From Spiroplasma citri (GTDB lineage Bacteria > Bacillota_I > Bacilli_A > Mycoplasmatales > Mycoplasmataceae): 64,000 nt of DNA. The stretch lies in the NCBI RefSeq assembly GCF_001886855.1, contig NZ_CP013197.1, positions 62,001 through 126,000 of the forward strand, given 5' to 3'. Shown here piece by piece: positions 10,114 through 62,635 of the stretch; position 1 is the first letter of the stretch, and each line of letters starts with the position of its first letter. Below the pieces are notes generated by a model. It was not told the DNA's origin and ran no database searches. It was given only the letters and a program-made list of their open reading frames with translations. The position numbers were made by a program, and so were the translations under genes.

Positions 10114-12786
10114 ATGAAAAATGTAATACCAAAAAAAATAAAAGACGCTAAATATCGTTTTTGACGCAATATAACAATAACAGATGTTTTGATAATTGCT
10201 GCTTGAGTTGGATTAACAATTATGTTTATATTTGGTTTTCAATGAAAACTATGAATAAAATTATTATCATCATCAATCATGATTTTAATTAGCTTACCAC
10301 TAATTATTACAAATAAAAAGACTAATTTAAAAAGATGACAATACTTGTATTATAAAATAAATTTCCTATTTAGTTATAAGAAATATAGTAAAAACAAAAC
10401 TATTTTACTGGTGCCATATAATAAAGTTATTGATGATAATTATATTGCAACACACGTAATTTTAAAGGGTACTTTAAAAAAACTTTAATTGGAGCAATTA
10501 AAATAAAGGGATTCGATATCACTTTATTAAGTGGCGAAGAGCAAATATTAAGATTACGAGACTTGCAAGATGTTTTTAAATTTGCTAATTTTCCAATAAC
10601 TTTTTTAAAGTTAGAATTACCATTAAATTTTGATGACAACATTAAATATTTACAAAAACAAATTAATAAAACGCAAATTCGTTATAAAAACAAAGAAATT
10701 AGTTTTAATCAATTTGTAAAAATTACAAAACAAATTAAAAATAATATTGCCTTTTTTTAAAAAAAGAATTAATTAAAATAAACGATGAAATTAAAACTGA
10801 AAAATGTTTTTTTATTTTTATATATGGAAATAGTCAAAAAGATTTAAATGAAAAAATATTATTTTTAGAAAATAAATTATATAAAGGAAAAATTAATTGC
10901 AATACTTTATCTAATTACGAAATAACAAAAATCTTAAAATTAATGTGAAATCCGTATGAAAAACCATTAAATAAAACAGATTTTAATAAAAATAAAGATA
11001 ATTTAGCAAAATTATTGCAATTTAAATACCTAAATATTAAACAAAATTATTTTATAGCAAATGATTTATATTATTCAATTAATACCATTCAGGACTACCC
11101 TTTATTTATTAACGATTTATGAGGAGCATGTTTATTTTCAAATGAGCAAACTATTATATTATTTGAAATATAAATCCTTTAAATTATGATGAAACAAAAA
11201 AAGCAATCAACAGTGCCATTCAAACAACCCAAACAAGACAAGTAATGACAAAATCATATGTTAATACAAATGAAAATAACTATGAATTAGAAACATACTA
11301 CCATTTAATTGATGAGGTTAATGGTGGTGGTGAATTATTAAAAAATGTTAATATTTTATTTTTAAATTATGGAACAAATAAAAAAAACATTACTACAAGC
11401 ACAAACACGATTAACAAAAGCATTAAAAGAAATGGATATTAAACTTAATCCATTGTGATATCAACAATTTAATGGTTTAAAAGGTTTTATACCATATAAT
11501 AATAAGGTCATAATAAAAAAATATGGTCGATAAATGCCAACAAGTACCTTAGCAGTATCATTTCCATTTATTGATAGTGGTTTACATGATAAACAAGGAA
11601 TGTACTTAGGAACAAATAATATGGGAAATGTTGTATTGTTGGATCAATTTAAAATTACAAGTAAAAGAACAAACCATAATATGTTTATTCTTGGTTCATC
11701 AGGAATGGGAAAAACATATTTTTTAAAAAAATAATAATAAATTTTCATATTCAGATGGGGCGAAAAGTGATTGTTACTGACCCTGAAAGAGAATACCAAG
11801 AATTATGCAAATATTATGATGGAAATTGAATTGATGCAGGAGATGCTTCTATAGGAAAAATAAACCCCCTACAAATTTTAGATAATAACTTTATTGATGA
11901 ATTAGAAAATACCAATTCATCACCCCTGTCAAATCATTTACGATTTTTAGAACAATGATTCAAAACGCTTTATCCTGATTTTAACGGGCGAGAAATTAAT
12001 TTATTAACAAAATATTTGAAATTATTATATCATCAATTTAAAATTACAAATAATAGTGACATTAATAAAATTAATAATAATGATTTTCCAATTATGAATG
12101 ATTTTTATTATTTATTAGAAAAAGAATATAAAAACAATAAAAATCAACTTTTAAAAGAATTTATGGATTTAATAGCAACTGATTTTTTAAATGATGGAAA
12201 ATATCAAGCACTTTGAAATGGTCACACAACAATAAAATTTAATAACAACTTTATTGTTTATGATGTTTATAATTTGTTTGATTTAGATGACAAAAAAACA
12301 AACGCAGCACAATTAATTTTAATGCTAAATATTATTAAAAAAGAAATAAAAGAAAATCGTTTTAAAGATAATAATCAAATTGTAATAATTGTTGATGAGG
12401 CTCATTTAGCAATCGATAAAGATAATCCAGCTGCCTTAAATTTTATGTATCAAATGACAAAGCGAATTCGGAAATATAATGGTGCTTTGGTTGTGGCAAC
12501 ACAAAATATCGCTGATTTTGTAGAAAATGAAACAATTTTTAAAAAAACAACAGCAATTATTAATAATAGTCAATATTCGTTTATTATGGGGCTAAAACCT
12601 AATGACCTAGAAAAAGTTATTAATTTATATAAAAGTTATGGCCGATTAACATCAGTAGAACAAGATTATATTGCTCGTAGTGTAAAAGGACAAGGGCTAT
12701 TTTTTGTTTCTGGATTTGAAAGATATCGTATTGAAATTCAAGCAAACAAAAAAGAAAAAGCAGGGTTTGGAAAAAAAGATAATTAA
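10114..12786 (+). pseudogene. VirB4/TraE conjugation ATPase, several frameshifts
   Basis: The start (MKNVIPKKIKDAKYRFWRN) is followed by two membrane segments, a PrgI-like module often fused to or preceding VirB4 in Gram-positive systems. The rest shows the ATPase: Walker A GSSGMGKT (about 11692-11716), then VTDPEREYQEL and Walker B IIVDEAHLAID (12385-12417), then VATQNIADF, the classic VirB4 order. The frame must be changed near 10485, 10760, 11170, 11385, 11525 and 11730, nearly all in A or T runs. VirB4 energises the type IV secretion channel. As read the gene is inactive. The intact C-terminal third (12016-12786) makes the identification firm. Confidence 0.8.
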
Positions 12787-12821
12787 AAAAACAAGTAAAT
12801 TTAATTGTTTTTTTTAATTTT
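12785..12821 (+). terminator. Terminator after the VirB4-like gene
   Basis: Stem AAAAAACAA/TTGTTTTTT followed by more T, starting at the stop codon. Confidence 0.65.
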
Positions 12822-12879
12822 TATGAAGAATTTTATTAAATTTTTACTTTTTTAGCAAAAAATAAAAAAGAGGATAAAA

Positions 12880-13467
12880 ATGTTAAAAACAAATTTAGGA
12901 AAATTAATAAATGGTGACGCATTAACTTTTATTAAAAGTTTAGAAAATGATATCGTTGATTTAATTTTAACTGATCCACCCTATTTATATAATTTACCAA
13001 AAAGAAAAAACGAGCAAATAAATAAAAATAATATATCAAAAAGTATAAATAAATATATTAATGCTATCTATGATAATAATTTGCATAATTCATTTGATAT
13101 AAATACTTATTTAGATGAGTTTTATCGAATTTCAAAAACTAAATTTATGTTAATTTGAATGAATAGATGACAAATTAAAGATTATTTAGATTGAGTTTAT
13201 AAAAATAATATGAATTTTGATTTTTATTTTTGAGAAAAAACAAACCCAATGCCAACTAATAATTTTATTTTGCAAGATAAAGAATATTGTATGATTATTT
13301 ACTCTAAAAAACACCAAATTCCAAATTATCAAAATAACTATGAAAATAAAAAAACAATATTTAAAAATTCAACAGGATCAGCTTATAAAATAACAGAACA
13401 TCCAACAGAAAAACCACTAAATATATTTTACGATTTAATTCAAAAATATAGAAGAAGATTGAAATAA
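12880..13467 (+). pseudogene. Adenine-specific DNA methyltransferase, C-terminus missing
   Basis: The 195-residue product has the catalytic motif LILTDPPYLY (about residues 29-38) early and EHPTEKPLNIFYDLI near the end. In beta-class methyltransferases the SAM-binding FxGxG segment follows HPTEKP; here the frame stops 15 residues later and that motif is absent. Immediately after the stop the sequence becomes part of the mob gene, so a deletion has joined the two. The remaining protein could not bind SAM normally. RBS GAGGAT precedes the ATG. Confidence 0.75.
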
Positions 13468-13469
13468 GC

Positions 13470-14237
13470 AACAACAAAAATATAGTGAAGCACAAAAATC
13501 AACTTTTAAAGAGTTTTGTAATAAACATAATACTTATATAGAAATTGTTTTGCCAGCAACAAGACAAGAATGATTTGAAAAAATGGGAATATGTCAATTT
13601 ACAGATATTCAAGTATGAGATAAAAAAACAGATACGCGTAAAATGGGACAATTAATTCCTGAAAGTATAAATTATTATAAATTAAATGAATGAGTTAATA
13701 TTGAAATAAATTTTATGAAACAATGAATGAAAAATAATCTTAAAACAAAAATTTAATAATTATCATGCTAATTATTTAACAAAAGCAGGTTATGAAATAG
13801 AGCCTGGTGAAATTGGAGGTAAAGGTAGTCATAATGCAATGAATTTTCGAGAAGTTAAAGAATTTGAACGAAATAAATTAGAAAATGAAATTAATAATCT
13901 ATTTGATGAATACAAGTCTAGCAAAGGCAATATTAAAGAATTTAGCAAAATTAAAATTATTAGTGATGATTATGATGGCTTAATTTATGAAATTAAACAA
14001 TATTTAAAATATGAAAATAATTTTAAAGATTATGAAATAAACCAATTAATTAAATATTTAGATTTAGCAGAAAAAATAAAATATTACAAAATTATCAAGA
14101 CCATTCCTAGTGCAAAAGAATCAGATTTTAAAAATATGAGTTTAATTGAACAAGAATTTAATGAAATGGTTTTTAAAATCAATCCGATTATGCAAAAAGG
14201 ATATGATTTGGTGAGAAGTCTAGAAAGAGAGTTATAA
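13470..14237 (+). pseudogene. MobV/Pre relaxase, 5' end and active site deleted
   Basis: The first part (13470-13756) gives an internal MobV-like segment (YIEIVLPATRQEWFEKMG) and ends where a deletion of about 160 bases removed the HxDExTPHxH active site seen in copy 2. The second part resumes at YHANYLTKAGYEIEPGE and is open to the stop (13839-14237), ending in a coiled coil. MobV relaxases nick DNA at oriT and start transfer; this copy has no histidine triad and cannot. Five bases separate it from traG. Confidence 0.75.
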
Positions 14238-57993: not shown

Positions 57994-58161
57994 ATGAGGA
58001 AAAGTTGTCCTAAATGTAGATCAAAAATAGAAGGTGATAATAAACATTTATGATGCACAAATGTTTATTTTATTTTTGCAAAAAACCCATATATTTTTAA
58101 AAAGAAAAAATATATAAATATGTTTGTTTGTGACTCTTATTTTATTTTGTTTTTTATTTAA
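57994..58161 (+). CDS. Zinc-ribbon-like ICE protein, altered (copy 2)
   Basis: As 7697-7816, but the fourth Cys is Phe and the TAG stop is TAT, adding 16 hydrophobic residues (55 in all). Probably no longer binds metal. Confidence 0.45.
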
Positions 58162-58228
58162 GTTTTTAGATGATCGCTTAGTTATTTAAAATGTTGTGAA
58201 ATATTAGAAAATTTGGAGAAAATTTAAT

Positions 58229-58441
58229 ATGTTTGATAAAAAGCAATATAAAGAATGAAACATATTATCAAAATATTTAAGTTGATATGAAATATTTAGA
58301 TATTTTAAAAGAGTTTATGATTATAAAAATGAAGAACAATTAAATCAAACACTTAATAATTATTTAAACAATTTACCAATTAAGGATATTGAAGAATATG
58401 AAAGAGAGATTTTAAATAATGACAATAACAGAATCAATTAA
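58229..58441 (+). CDS. Small ICE protein (70 aa)
   Basis: Intact version of the gene broken at 7932. Polar, helical, with WNILSKYLSWYEIFRYFKRV. TTGGAG lies 13 bases before the ATG. Overlaps the next gene by 23 bases. Function unknown. Confidence 0.6.
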
Positions 58442-58671
58442 ATTTAACAAACTTAAAGAAGAAAATGAAAAAATTAAAAAAGAACTTGCTGAAAAAGATA
58501 AAGAAATTAATAGTTTTAAACAACAAATATATATGGCACATAATTTTATTTAAATTAAATATTAATGATGATAGTTATTGCCAAAATTGTTCAAAAGATA
58601 GTTTTGATTTGAAAGAATTTACTGAAATTATATGTTTTAAAGATAACTTAAAATATGACAAATTACCATAA
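58419..58671 (+). pseudogene. Coiled-coil/Cys ICE protein, internal deletion (copy 2)
   Basis: Starts MTITESIKFNKLKEENEKI, the true N-terminus absent from copy 1. A deletion after AHNF removes the first Cys pair and causes a stop; the CQNC half follows in another frame to 58671. Confidence 0.6.
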
Positions 58672-59131
58672 ATTATGCCTCAGTTTTAATTGCGATAATG
58701 GTTGTATTATCACAAGTAATGCGAATCCAAATTATTCCAAGAACATCAATTCCATTATTTTTATAAGTGGAGTTATTTTAAATTGATATTGGTGTTTGTT
58801 AATTGGATTTATGGGACATTTTCTATCAGATTTAACATTATGAGGTTTTACTGTGGGATGATTATGTTGAAATATCGGGACAGGTTTATTAGCAGTTTTA
58901 ATTAAAATAATTAATTGAATAAAAATAAATCATAGTATTAAAATTATTCTTATTTTATTATCAAACATAATTATTTATCTTCCGATTGATTTTGTTCTTT
59001 TTTGATTAAATCTTGGAGTTTTAAGTATAGAACAAATAATTATCGGAATATTAATTACGAACACAATATGTTTGCCAATTTTCTATTTTATAACATTAAA
59101 AATTAAAAAAAGATTAAAAATAATTTTATAG
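58671..59131 (+). pseudogene. Membrane transporter fragment, possibly an ECF S component
   Basis: About 150 codons in two frames (change near 58765) give five or so hydrophobic segments: VLIAIMVVLSQVMRIQIIPR, then GFMGHFLSDLTLWGFTVGW. The GxxxxxLSDL pattern and topology suit an ECF-transporter substrate-binding subunit, but this is uncertain. No N-terminus is present. It lies inside ICE copy 2, so it arrived by recombination. Confidence 0.45.
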
Positions 59132-59148
59132 AGAAAGGAACTATCAAA

Positions 59149-59433
59149 ATGAAAGAAACAGAAAAATATATAAGTTATCAAGTTATGACAAATAATTTAA
59201 TTTTAACAAAATCTTATTATGATATTAAAGGTAATAAATGAATTGAGTTAAGGATAAAAAATTTATTGTATCCTTATGCAAGTATTAATATAAATAGCAA
59301 ATATTTTAAATTACAATATAACAAAGATTATTGTTTTATTACAATTTTTAAAAATAAAAACTTTTATATTAAAAATAAAGATGGAAAAATTGAGGGTGAG
59401 ATTAGTTTAAAAAAATCCACCCTTTTTTATTAG
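59149..59433 (+). CDS. Hypothetical ICE protein (94 aa)
   Basis: A Tyr/Asn/Lys-rich soluble product (MKETEKYISYQVMTNNLILT) with beta-like alternation. GAAAGGAAC precedes the ATG. A GGGTG/CACCC hairpin with T-run (59391-59430) covers its last codons and may end the transcript. Not represented in copy 1, where this region is deleted. Confidence 0.55.
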
Positions 59434-59435
59434 AA

Positions 59436-59537
59436 ATGAATAAGCAAGTTTTAATTAAAAAAGCAGAACAAAAACAAATATACCAAGAAAATTTAAAATA
59501 TTTTAATAGTAATAAATTTCCAAAAAAAGATGATTAA
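59436..59537 (+). CDS. Hypothetical short ICE protein (33 aa)
   Basis: A basic, helical peptide (MNKQVLIKKAEQKQIYQENL) two bases after the previous gene. No separate ribosome site is seen. Weak call. Confidence 0.3.
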   Translation: MNKQVLIKKAEQKQIYQENLKYFNSNKFPKKDD

Positions 59538-59568
59538 TTAGACAAAATAAAAATGAAATTTTTCAAAT

Positions 59569-59613
59569 ATTTTGGCAAAGCCAAAATGTATGATGAGCAA
59601 GCATTTTGGCTTT
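59569..59613 (+). promoter_or_regulatory. Competing hairpins ahead of mob; oriT or attenuator candidate
   Basis: ATTTTGGC (59569-59576) pairs with GCCAAAAT (59580-59587) across an AAA loop. The same GCCAAAAT block also pairs, as AAAGCCAAAATG (59577-59588), with CATTTTGGCTTT (59602-59613), 12 perfect pairs. Only one stem can form at a time. It lies 56 bases before the relaxase gene, the usual place of oriT in MobV systems. Confidence 0.5.
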
Positions 59614-59668
59614 ATAAATTTAATAAATTTTAAAAGGTAAAAATTTCCAAAAAAGGGAGGATAAAAAG

Positions 59669-60498
59669 ATGAAAAAAGAAAATAAACTTAGGTCATCACC
59701 ACCAATTGCAACTTTTAAAAAATATAGTAGTAAAAGTGTTAATAAACTAATAAGACATAATTTTAGAATTGGAATACCTGAAAATATTAATCCTGAGTTT
59801 ACAAAATATAATTTTTATTGAAATAAATTTTATGAAACAATGAATGAAAAATAATCTTAAAACAGATATAGGATATTTGTATTCAGCAGTTCACATGGAT
59901 GAAACAACACCCCATATTCATTTTGGTTTTATTCCAATTAGTAAAGTTTTTTCAAAAAAACTTAATAAAGAAAGATACATAATTAGTAATAATCTTATTT
60001 TTGGCGGTAAAAAACAACTACAAAAATTCAATAATTATCATGCTAATTATTTAACAAAAGCAGGTTATGAAATAGAACCTGGCGAAATTGGTTGTAAAGG
60101 TAGTTATAATGCAATGAATTTTCGACAAGTTAAACAATTTGAACGAAATAAATTAGAAAATGAAATTAATAATCTATTTGATGAATACAAGTCTAGCAAA
60201 GGCAATATTAAAGAATTTAGCAAAATTAAAATTATTAGTGATGATTATGATGGTTTAATAATATTTAAAATATGAAAATAATTTTACAGATTATGAAATA
60301 AACCAGTTAACTAAATATTTACATTTAGCAGAAAAAATGAAATACTACAAAATTATAACTACTGTTGCTAACCCAAAAATAGCAGATTTTAAAAATATGA
60401 GTTTAATTGAAGAAGAATTTAATGAAATGGTTTTTAAAATCAATCCAATTATGCAAAAAGGCTATGATTTGGTGAGCAGTCTAGAAAGAGAGTTATAA
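59669..60498 (+). pseudogene. MobV/Pre relaxase with active site, frameshifted
   Basis: The first 60 codons (MKKENKLRSSPPIATFKKYS) are true N-terminus, absent from copy 1. The frame changes near 59835, where the internal segment kept in copy 1 is missing. The next part (59844-60275) has the relaxase metal site HMDETTPHIHFG and YHANYLTKAGYEIEPGE. A 15-base loss near 60252 breaks the frame again; the coiled-coil end continues to 60498. GGGAGGAT precedes the start. Confidence 0.8.
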
Positions 60499-60502
60499 AA
60501 AT

Positions 60503-62583
60503 ATGTAAAATAAAATCAAAAAGAAAAAAATAAGTTTATTAATTGGTTTATGTTTTGTTCCAATTATTTTTATTTTTTGTTTAACATTATTTGGAATAGG
60601 TTATTCAATTTTTATTAATTGAAAAGAAATTACAATATTTATCAATGAAATTAAGCAATTTCAAATATTATCATGATGAAATTATATAATTAAAAGTAAA
60701 TACGGATTATTAATAACAGTTGGATTAAGTTTAGCGTTTTATTGCTGATTTTTTTTATTTTGTTTTATTTAGTAAATTGAAGAATAAAGAAACTGCAATT
60801 AAAACAACCAATAAAATAGATTTTGGTGATAGTAAATGATTAAGTATAAAAGAAATTGATGATATTAGTGAAAAAGTAAATATCAAAGATAATTATAAAA
60901 ATACAGGCTTTGTTTTTAATTGTAATAAAAACAAAAAAAGATTTATTGTTTAACTTAAAAAAATAATATTCATAGTGTTATTGTTGGTTCAACAGCAAGC
61001 GGAAAAACACAAGGCATAGTATTACCAACAATTTATTTAAATGGAAAATCAACTACTAAACCAACTATGATTATAACCGACCCCAAGGGTGAAATGTATA
61101 ATTTAACCAGTGGTTATTTAGCAGAAAATGGTTATAAAATAAAAGTTATTGATTTTTGTAATTTAGAAAAAGGAAATACTTGAAATCCATTAAAACTAAT
61201 TTATGATGACTTTATTAAAATGATAATGACAAATAAGGAAAAAGAAAAAATAAAGTGAAAAATAAAGTATCAAGATAAAATTAGATCACTTAGTCGTATG
61301 TTGATTAACAAAAATCCCGAAGATGAATTTTGGAATGAATCAACAAGTATGATTATTCAAGGAATTATTTTAGCAATATTAGAAGATTATGAAGATAAAA
61401 TAAACAAAAATAATTTGATAACAGAAATCGAGGAAACTTTAAACTAAGAATCATTTTCCAATAAATTTAATATGGCATCAGTGGCAGCAATCACTAGTTT
61501 TAAAAAAGATTTAGTTGAATGACTAATAATCGAAAAAATACCAGCATTGCCAAAATAACCGCAAGTCAGGCTTTGGTTGATAGTAAAGAAAATCGAACAC
61601 TAGATGCTATTTTAATGACTGTTGCAAAAAGTTTAGAAATATTTAACAATGATTTTATTCGTAATTTAACATCCCAAAATGATATTAATTACAATGATTT
61701 TATCGAATATCCAACAGTTTTATACATCATATTTAGTGACGAAAATGATAATTACTATAAATTAATAGCAATATTAATTAGTCAAATTTATCAATTTTTA
61801 ACAAATAAAGTAAGTGAAATAATCGAACAAAAACTAGAAAAACCAGTATATTTTATTTTAGATGAATTTGCTAATTTAATAAAAATAAACAACATTGAAA
61901 AATGAGTTAGTATTTCGCGTAGCAGAAACATATTTTTTCAATTTATTTTACAAGATATCAACCAATTAAAATTAAATTATGGTGATACAATAGCAAAAAT
62001 TATTTTAAATAACTGTGGGATGCATATTTTCTTACATACCAATGATTTAGAAACAATAAAATATTATAGTGAATTATTTGGAACAAAAACAATCGAACAA
62101 ATTAGTATTAATGAAAATAAAATCAATATTAGTGTTTCGAAAAATTTAAAAAGTCACCCCTTAATGTTAACTAGTGAGTTAGCAAATTTAAAACAAGGAC
62201 AAGGAATTGTTAAAATAGCACGCTATAACCCAATGAAACTAACTTTAAAACTATGAAAAGATTTAAAGTTAGTAGAAAAAACAAACATATTTCAATTAAA
62301 AGAAATTAACTATATAAATTTTAATAAAGAATATTTTTATGATATTAAAAATAACAAAAAAGAAATAAAAGAAAATGAAATTAATGAATTTGTCAATTTA
62401 ACAACAACAGAAATTAAGACAAATATTAATAATTTAAAAATACAATTAAGAGAGTATGAAAATACAAATTACAAATCTATTCAAAATAAAACAATAATAA
62501 ATTTACTTTTAAAAAAAATCAAAAACCTTGAAATAGAATTAATCAAAAGACAAGAAACCAATAATTATTCTGAAAAGGAATAA
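60503..62583 (+). pseudogene. VirD4/TraG coupling protein, broken (copy 2)
   Basis: Same gene as 14242-16320 but inactivated: the second codon TGA (Trp) is TAA; one T is added near 60755; bases are added near 60940-60960; a TAA lies near 61445; one base is lost near 61520. The Walker A (GSTASGKT) and Walker B (LDEFAN) segments survive. Confidence 0.85.
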
Positions 62584-62590
62584 TTATTTT

Positions 62591-62635
62591 TTATAAATAG
62601 TAAGATTTCACAAAATGGTCAAGCTGGAACACTTA
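62591..62635 (+). repeat. 45-base inverted module, right partner (copy 2)
   Basis: TTATAAATAGTAAGATTTC, 15 bases, TGGAACACTTA, eight bases after traG as in copy 1. Confidence 0.8.

Follow-up and report, generated by a model that had tools for sequence, protein, structure and literature searches.

The three-arm element and the gene relics beside it

The window, that is, the whole stretch of 64,000 nucleotides of Spiroplasma citri DNA analysed here, belongs to a chromosome-sized contig (G000:C1, 1,599,709 bp), in which open frames were read with TGA as tryptophan. On its forward strand, a 45-bp element at 59569-59613 is followed by the relics of two genes. The first is a MobV (Mob_Pre) relaxase gene, mob, at 59669-60498, left as three pieces (59669-59854, 59769-60281 and 60337-60498) which are 70-85% identical to residues 1-62, 157-314 and 309-393 of the intact plasmid protein P0001; its centre is missing and its parts stand in different frames. 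The middle piece matches Pfam PF01076 (Mob_Pre) with an E value of 1.5e-10 and 41.7 bits, and the HNxR and HxDExxPHxH stretches are retained, each in another frame. From its sequence, GGGAGG at 59655-59660 is the putative ribosome-binding site of mob. The second relic, at 60777-62583, derives from a VirD4/TraG coupling-protein gene, with PF02534 recognised on the piece 61067-61447 and both PF02534 and PF12696 on the piece 61519-62583, while the first piece (60777-60953) was recognised solely through its DNA match to the plasmid copy.

The element itself is composed of three arms. The left arm ATTTTGGC (59569-59576), comparable to an IR1-L, pairs with 59580-59587 in a perfect 8-bp hairpin with the loop AAA. 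The middle arm AAAGCCAAAATG (59577-59588), comparable to both IR1-R and IR2-L, is able to pair over 8 bp to the left or over 12 bp to the right, and the right arm CATTTTGGCTTT (59602-59613), comparable to an IR2-R, completes with it a perfect 12-bp hairpin. As both hairpins use the middle arm, they are mutually exclusive. The loop of the long hairpin (59589-59601, 13 nt) reads TATGATGAGCAAG and holds the candidate nick region TATGATGAG/C; the nick is predicted between 59597 and 59598 on the same strand, from the G/T nick register of pMV158 and the TAGnnnG/T motif of nine other MobV loci. A sequence-only reading of this DNA had described a middle block with these two alternative partners just upstream of a relaxase gene, and both statements hold: the pairing is exact in the sequence, and 55 bp separate the 3' end of the element from the ATG of the broken mob gene. 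Further upstream lies the block AAAATGAAATTT (59550-59561), invariant in nine aligned loci including a locus with replaced stems, and enclosed by a weak outer inverted repeat formed by CAAAATA (59543-59549) and TATTTTG (59568-59574). In genome G102, the equivalent of this block is found, by inspection, within a 9-bp inverted repeat.

Among the three-arm structures of the 64-kb window (exact seed of 6), 59569-59613 ranked first, and its score was matched in none of 60 dinucleotide shuffles of the whole window, nor in any of 2000 shuffled versions of the 300 bp preceding mob. ATTTTGGC words occur 14 times in the window on both strands, for 5.65 expected, and three of the 14 are in this element. 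Taken alone, the long hairpin gave a DNA fold z of -5.1, with 0 of 200 shuffles as good, and the short left hairpin was modest: when the 40 nt on its left were shuffled 2000 times, 37 of the resulting sequences equalled it. Predicted energies are -11.6 kcal/mol for the long hairpin versus -6.0 kcal/mol for the short one.

Intact relatives and the conjugative module

The S. citri plasmids pSciBLHMB-2 and pSciBLHMB-3 carry a copy that is 93.5% identical over 87% of 58000-62600, and in them mob is intact and encodes P0001, a 393-residue protein annotated as hypothetical. Matches at E <= 0.001 were obtained in the same 10 genomes, the present one (G000) included, from a search of 119 relatives and then from 320 genomes of the order. 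In six of them (G000, G001, G005, G007, G098 and G102) the family is represented at 52% identity or above and the start of the gene is present; one (G088) has a fragment only, and three (G086, G090 and G106) have distant relatives. Eleven loci with both gene start and upstream DNA were thereby available: the window, a second copy in G000, the two plasmids, two loci each in G001 and G007, and one each in G005, G098 and G102. Outside this count stand the relics at G000:C1:75355 and G000:C1:1493583 and that of G088, which have no gene start. The sequence-only reading had proposed to look for the same structure before intact mob genes of spiroplasma plasmids; it is present there, on pSciBLHMB-2 and -3, and also before intact mob genes of G001, G007, G098 and G102, so that the outcome named by that reading as refuting its idea did not occur. 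The second copy in G000, the constant TGAG of the loop and the mycoplasma-ICE-type secretion genes go beyond what that reading had noted.

On pSciBLHMB-2, the site is preceded by genes for an Mbov_0399-family protein and an Mbov_0397-family VirB4, and is followed by mob and then by an intact VirD4 gene (CD1115 family, NF045973). NCBIfam scores exceeded their cutoffs for NF045975 (919 bits, cutoff 590), NF045973 (285.5, cutoff 250) and, with a partial CDS searched, NF045892 (191.7 bits, cutoff 170). The plasmid has VirB4 and VirD4 genes of the type found in a mycoplasma integrative conjugative element (MICE). Across the order, the Mbov_0397-family VirB4 scored over cutoff in 87 of 314 genomes versus 10 of 320 with a relative of this MobV, distant ones included, so that only the smaller part of the genomes bearing such a type IV secretion system (T4SS) has this module.

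The module also occurs in other arrangements. G007:C1:970509-984145 contains two copies of VirB4, candidate oriT and mob in inverted orientation, with the mob genes about 5 kb apart and the two candidate oriT sequences identical across 40 matched bases. Loci L012 (G098) and L014 (G102) come from another family of the order and encode MobV proteins 77-78% and 52-53% identical, respectively. That these two genomes carry such a relaxase with a site of the same design suggests spread between families. In the window, a 158-aa open reading frame lies upstream at 58655-59131, whose DNA is 76-79% identical to stretches of nine S. citri plasmid records; at least two of these nine have no Mob_Pre gene, and the module looks mosaic.

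Within the chromosome of G000, the second copy of the site likewise precedes a broken mob. This gene (G000:C1:1484222-1485268) ends before residue ~348, and a C-terminal mob fragment is located about 8 kb downstream (G000:C1:1493583-1493819), as if split by an insertion. A further decayed module is found at 11707-14234 of the window (G000:C1:73707-76234), with the last part of a VirB4 gene and two mob pieces corresponding to residues ~50-183 and 230-393; gene start and oriT pattern are both absent from it. Since both G000 sites precede broken mob genes, they would be relics, unless a relaxase from elsewhere acts on them in trans.

Identity of the relaxase

Pfam Mob_Pre (PF01076) recognised P0001 with 49.5 bits and P0002 with 39.3 bits (cutoff 25.5), and the NCBIfam MobV equivalog NF041497 gave 55.7 and 50.7 bits, under its cutoff of 100. 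The protein is thus a divergent relative below the NCBI naming threshold, and is called MobV-like here by the tests of fold and motif. Both the HNxR motif, with the catalytic histidine, and the metal motif HxDExxPHxH align in 22 MobV proteins; in this alignment R33, H188, D190, E191, H195 and H197 are invariant and H30 is present in at least 90%. A phmmer search against solved structures retrieved the MobM sequence (E 3.3e-5), and profile-profile comparison to MobV gave a probability of 98.6.

A structure model was computed for the G001 protein with 22 sequences (pLDDT 79.5), a version from 4 sequences being poor (pLDDT 50) and left out. With this model, Foldseek returned MobM-oriT complexes first (E 6.7e-6, probability 1.00), and comparison with MobM of pMV158 gave Z scores of 13.5-15.4 (the highest with an rmsd of 3.5 over 191 residues), compared with Z 9.3 for MobA of R1162 and 7.4-8.8 for TrwC/TraI. 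Lower-ranked structure matches were helical bundles on the C-terminal helices, and were taken as unspecific. The modelled relaxase would accordingly have the HUH fold of MobM.

Conservation, covariation and linkage to mob

In each of the 11 loci the long hairpin measures 10-14 bp and its loop contains TGAG, and the left hairpin measures 6-12 bp. The table of arms was made by a script anchored on TGAG, and TGAG is also invariant in unanchored alignments of nine and of six loci. Loop variants are TGATGAG/C or /T, TAATGAG/T and TACTGAG/T, the base after the predicted nick being C instead of T in four of the 11 loci, one of which has an intact gene. In the close family, the stem has only 3-4 G-C pairs and the loop 13-16 nt. 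The left-hairpin loop is of 3 nt in nine loci, and the spacing from short hairpin to predicted nick ranges from 6 to 11 nt, with 10 nt in seven of the 11.

The long hairpin is maintained through sequence change. In G007, one T-A pair of the stem has become G-C with the pairing retained, and in G102, whose relaxase is 52-53% identical, the stem is replaced by TGTTCCGGAAAAAG/CTTTTTCCGGAACA around a loop that still reads CATGATGAGTATT; the G102 hairpin with its ATGATGAG loop was equalled in 1 of 20000 shuffles of that region. In a 37-column alignment of six sequences (five distinct), with two rows shifted by one column where the loop ends, 7 of 12 pairs are changed on both sides, a count reached in 0 of 500 shuffles, and the true register is 93.1% paired versus at most 69.8% for all six slid registers. 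Plain MAFFT alignments, which did not register the G102 stem, were set aside for this purpose. The covariation is strong but narrow, as six of the seven changes come from G102 alone and the seventh also involves it.

The left hairpin is more variable. Against shuffled left flanks (2000 each), it was equalled 34 times for pSciBLHMB-2, 44 for G007, 125 for G102 and once for G098, next to the 37 of the window: it is modestly beyond chance, or not at all, in four of the five loci tested, and clear in G098. In the latter the left hairpin is lengthened to 12 bp and the long hairpin reduced to 10 bp; one of the G001 copies has a mismatch in the left hairpin, and that of G102 is of 6 bp. The oriT-like hairpin of G102 lies 176 bp from mob, versus 54-55 bp elsewhere, and is outscored there by another three-arm structure. 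Between this hairpin and mob, L014 (G102) has a strong three-arm repeat of CCCCTA/TAGGGG at 2707-2757. Among the distant relatives, no such structure was found upstream of the partly broken MobV genes of G106 and G086 (25-35% identity), and G090 (26% identity) has a three-arm structure with TAGTAAG/T.

The pattern TTTTGNCAAAGCCAAAA-N12-18-TTTTGGC, which does not cover the G102 stem, was found at eight places in 5 of 317 genomes, all eight about 58 bp before mob. With a covariance model of the long hairpin, pSciBLHMB-2, pSciBLHMB-3 and the two G000 sites reached 54-58 bits. Apart from reverse-strand matches to these sites, nothing above 22 bits was obtained in the rest of G000 or in 15 further Spiroplasma plasmid records; among the 17 plasmid records, the two carrying MobV were the only ones with strong matches. 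Of 11 plasmid records tested for Mob_Pre, one (CP047439) was positive. Site and relaxase go together in the sequences searched. Three S. citri plasmids and two places in G000 gave matches of about 22 bits, which were considered as orphan oriT copies and taken as chance: on inspection of five of these places, one type was without the TGAG-loop long hairpin and the other was poorly paired, with ATAATGAGG. A 131-bp query retrieved only pSciBLHMB-2 and -3, besides matches of 27-28 bp in Borrelia and Nostoc taken as chance, and no relative was found in the viral contigs and phage sequences searched.

Comparison with the oriT of pMV158 and with other MobV loci

The sequence-only reading had likened the arrangement to the oriT of MobV relaxases and suggested comparison with mapped sites. 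In the accessible part of the pMV158 study (PMC5863519), three overlapping inverted repeats upstream of mobM form mutually exclusive hairpins; MobM shifts IR3 to IR1, exposing the G/T nick that lies 8 nt downstream of the latter, and uses a histidine for cleavage. The same layout is seen here, and the likeness to a mapped oriT thus found support: the arms overlap upstream of mob, the middle arm is common, the left and right arms contain the same word, the nick (in the spiroplasma sites the predicted one) stands 3' of the first hairpin and within the loop of the second, and the relaxase has the fold and motifs of MobM. Overlapping repeats with a common arm, upstream of mob and on its strand, as in a pMV158-type oriT, were found in 11 of 11 loci.

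The sequences themselves differ. The pMV158-type nick sequence, TAGTGTG/TTA or TAGnnnG/T, was not found at the spiroplasma sites: TGATGAG/T stands in place of the TAGTGTG/T of pMV158, and the stem sequence is different too. In pMV158, as far as the available text describes it, the loop of the left hairpin is of 4 nt and the nick spacing of 8 nt, in contrast to the usual 3 and 10 nt of the spiroplasma sites, and its long hairpin has 9 bp, in contrast to 10-14 bp with a loop of 13-16 nt. IR2 and IR1 of pMV158 are close in energy with the same tool (-3.8 and -3.3), unlike the -11.6 and -6.0 kcal/mol obtained here, and the bulged IR3 reported there as the most stable form (-6.88) has no clear counterpart, by inspection, in the spiroplasma site. 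By analogy, the spiroplasma site would work like the oriT of pMV158, outside its sequence family.

The finder recovered the known arms of the printed pMV158 oriT. From a set of 30 collected loci, 24 were used, and L044, L047, L048, L052, L057 and L058 were dropped because upstream DNA or gene start was missing or uncertain. In 9 of 29 other MobV loci, a three-arm site upstream was significant (equalled by no more than 6 of 300 shuffles), and all nine carry, by inspection, TAGnnnG/T within the second loop or at its edge. The finder gave no significant three-arm structure in the 20 remaining loci, so that this layout by itself is not a defining mark of MobV. For the background, a score of 7/17 was reached by 30 of 542 stretches from the loci of the class search, the upstream sites included, and the five of them that had the nick motif as well were sites upstream of mob. 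The oriT-like sites of staphylococcal and other Bacilli MobV loci have the same three-arm layout, for instance L061 with GACTTATT.GCAA.AATAAGTCTAGTATG/TTAGACTTA, and carry TAGnnnG/T, unlike the spiroplasma sites.

Interpretation and alternative explanations

What the sequences and the protein model show, namely a three-arm structure that is conserved, covaries and is linked to mob, and a relaxase with the motifs and the modelled fold of MobM, points to an oriT. The relaxase using it would be a divergent MobV, and both would be parts of a conjugative element whose T4SS is of the mycoplasma-ICE kind; this reading is given a probability of about 0.86. From these observations we infer nicking, its position, switching and transfer. 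In relatives with an intact gene, the enzyme would recognise the hairpin DNA lying directly before mob, nick the strand that encodes mob within the TGAG loop (TGAG/T, here 59597/59598), remain on the cut end through the histidine of HNxR, and the strand would be handed to the VirD4 coupling protein encoded adjacently. Having one arm in common, the hairpins allow the site to take two states, with either the short hairpin 6-11 nt upstream of the predicted nick or the long hairpin holding that nick in its loop, which would resemble the on/off switch proposed from footprinting of pMV158.

Other functions were weighed against this one. The sequence-only reading had also recognised in the arrangement an attenuator. 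In such a transcription attenuator or riboregulator of mob, the left hairpin of the leader RNA would be the antiterminator and the right one the terminator. The mutually exclusive hairpins 55 bp before mob fit it, the strand folds well as RNA (z -3.05), and TTTTT directly follows the G+C part of the stem in 6 of the 11 copies; this was the part of the proposal that fared less well, as after the stem the window and its sister copy read TTTAT, both G001 copies TTTCT and G102 ATATT. The few G-C pairs and long loop of the stem in the close family also speak against a terminator, no Rfam family reached its gathering score, and attenuation would not call for a loop that stays constant while the stem is replaced, as in G102. 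A terminator scan found none; being confined to loops of 3-8 nt, it is blind to a hairpin with a 13-nt loop and is not counted as evidence. Regulation by attenuation is consequently regarded as very improbable.

Two further possibilities, each held to be slightly more improbable still, involve the same protein. Rolling-circle origins likewise place the nick in a hairpin, and the site could on this design be a double-strand origin with the MobV protein as replication initiator. A Mycoplasma yeatsii plasmid indeed has a MobV gene, but in the accessible text of its description (PMC3541243) replication is attributed to the product of the other gene and MobV is taken as a mobilisation protein; moreover, the nick of pMV158-family double-strand origins given there, TACTAC(C)G/A, is absent from both strands of 59540-59660. 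The neighbours of the site on pSciBLHMB-2, VirB4 and VirD4, also argue against a replication origin. Alternatively, the Pfam family being named for a plasmid recombination enzyme and the window copy being chromosomal, the site could be a plasmid recombination (Pre/RSA) site on which Mob_Pre resolves or fuses plasmids, instead of serving conjugation. In the known Mob_Pre family, recombination and conjugation use the same nick site, so that this role is not exclusive of conjugation, and the genes around the site, VirD4 next to it and VirB4 close by, speak for transfer.

With the element taken as an oriT, a further proposal is made tentatively and is rather doubtful: that a clade of mollicute conjugative elements with MICE-type secretion employs a MobV relaxase for which the nick-loop hairpin is the form read, with roles reversed relative to pMV158. 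In the accessible part of the pMV158 study (PMC5863519), IR2 was not detected as a hairpin and the upstream hairpin is the active form. Here it is the nick-loop hairpin that conservation and covariation support, and by the predicted energies it is also far more stable than the other; against a full reversal of roles stands G098, with its left hairpin of 12 bp and long hairpin of 10 bp. This preference is a testable difference from pMV158, and the very different stems around one constant loop offer a ready means of testing which of the two hairpins is read by a MobV relaxase.

Comparison with known spiroplasma and mycoplasma systems

The element resembles mycoplasma ICEs (ICEA and others) in its Mbov_0397-family VirB4, its Mbov_0399-family protein (partial CDS) and its VirD4. 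In the available part of the ICEA report (PMC6030558), relaxase and oriT are parts of the model with no gene or site named, and a hairpin TGGCTCAT-N5-ATGAGCCA is given in the context of a possible oriT from a personal communication; the spiroplasma element differs in having an identifiable MobV gene. The ICEA hairpin contains ATGAG, as do 10 of the 11 loops of the spiroplasma family, which may be a coincidence. Under the tentative proposal made above, sites built in this way may serve further mollicute ICEs as well.

Within the genus, pSci1-3, pBJS-O and pSKU146 have the same VirB4 family (28.7-29.9% identical), and neither Mob_Pre nor a strong match to this oriT was found on them. In the accessible text of the respective reports, the authors found no relaxase on the pSci plasmids (PMC2386487), pBJS-O has no recognisable oriT and pSKU146 an IncP-like one (PMC1318496), and pScp-C189-1 encodes a replication-relaxation family protein (PMC8140453). 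In the spiroplasma and mycoplasma conjugation literature searched, which left subscription journals mostly outside and was in part available as excerpts, no description of this site was found.

Two mollicute systems are set beside the present one by description. As far as the available text goes, Spiroplasma ixodetis from Dactylopius has a MOB relaxase and T4SS genes, with no MOB class or oriT named (PMC8025503), and is alike in combining the two in a spiroplasma. The 3.4-kb plasmid pMyBK1 of Mycoplasma yeatsii is described in the accessible part of its report as having MobV4, no mating-pair genes and rolling-circle replication (PMC3541243); the likeness is that of a MobV relaxase in a mollicute. 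For S. citri, a report of gene exchange resembling conjugation dates from 1988 (cited in the available part of PMC2386487). To this the present analysis adds a defined pair of site and enzyme, namely a candidate oriT of 45 bp and a relaxase of 393 aa encoded by a fully sequenced plasmid, of a kind that earlier authors, in the accessible text of their reports, had not found on S. citri plasmids, and which makes the conjugation of wall-less bacteria testable in vitro.
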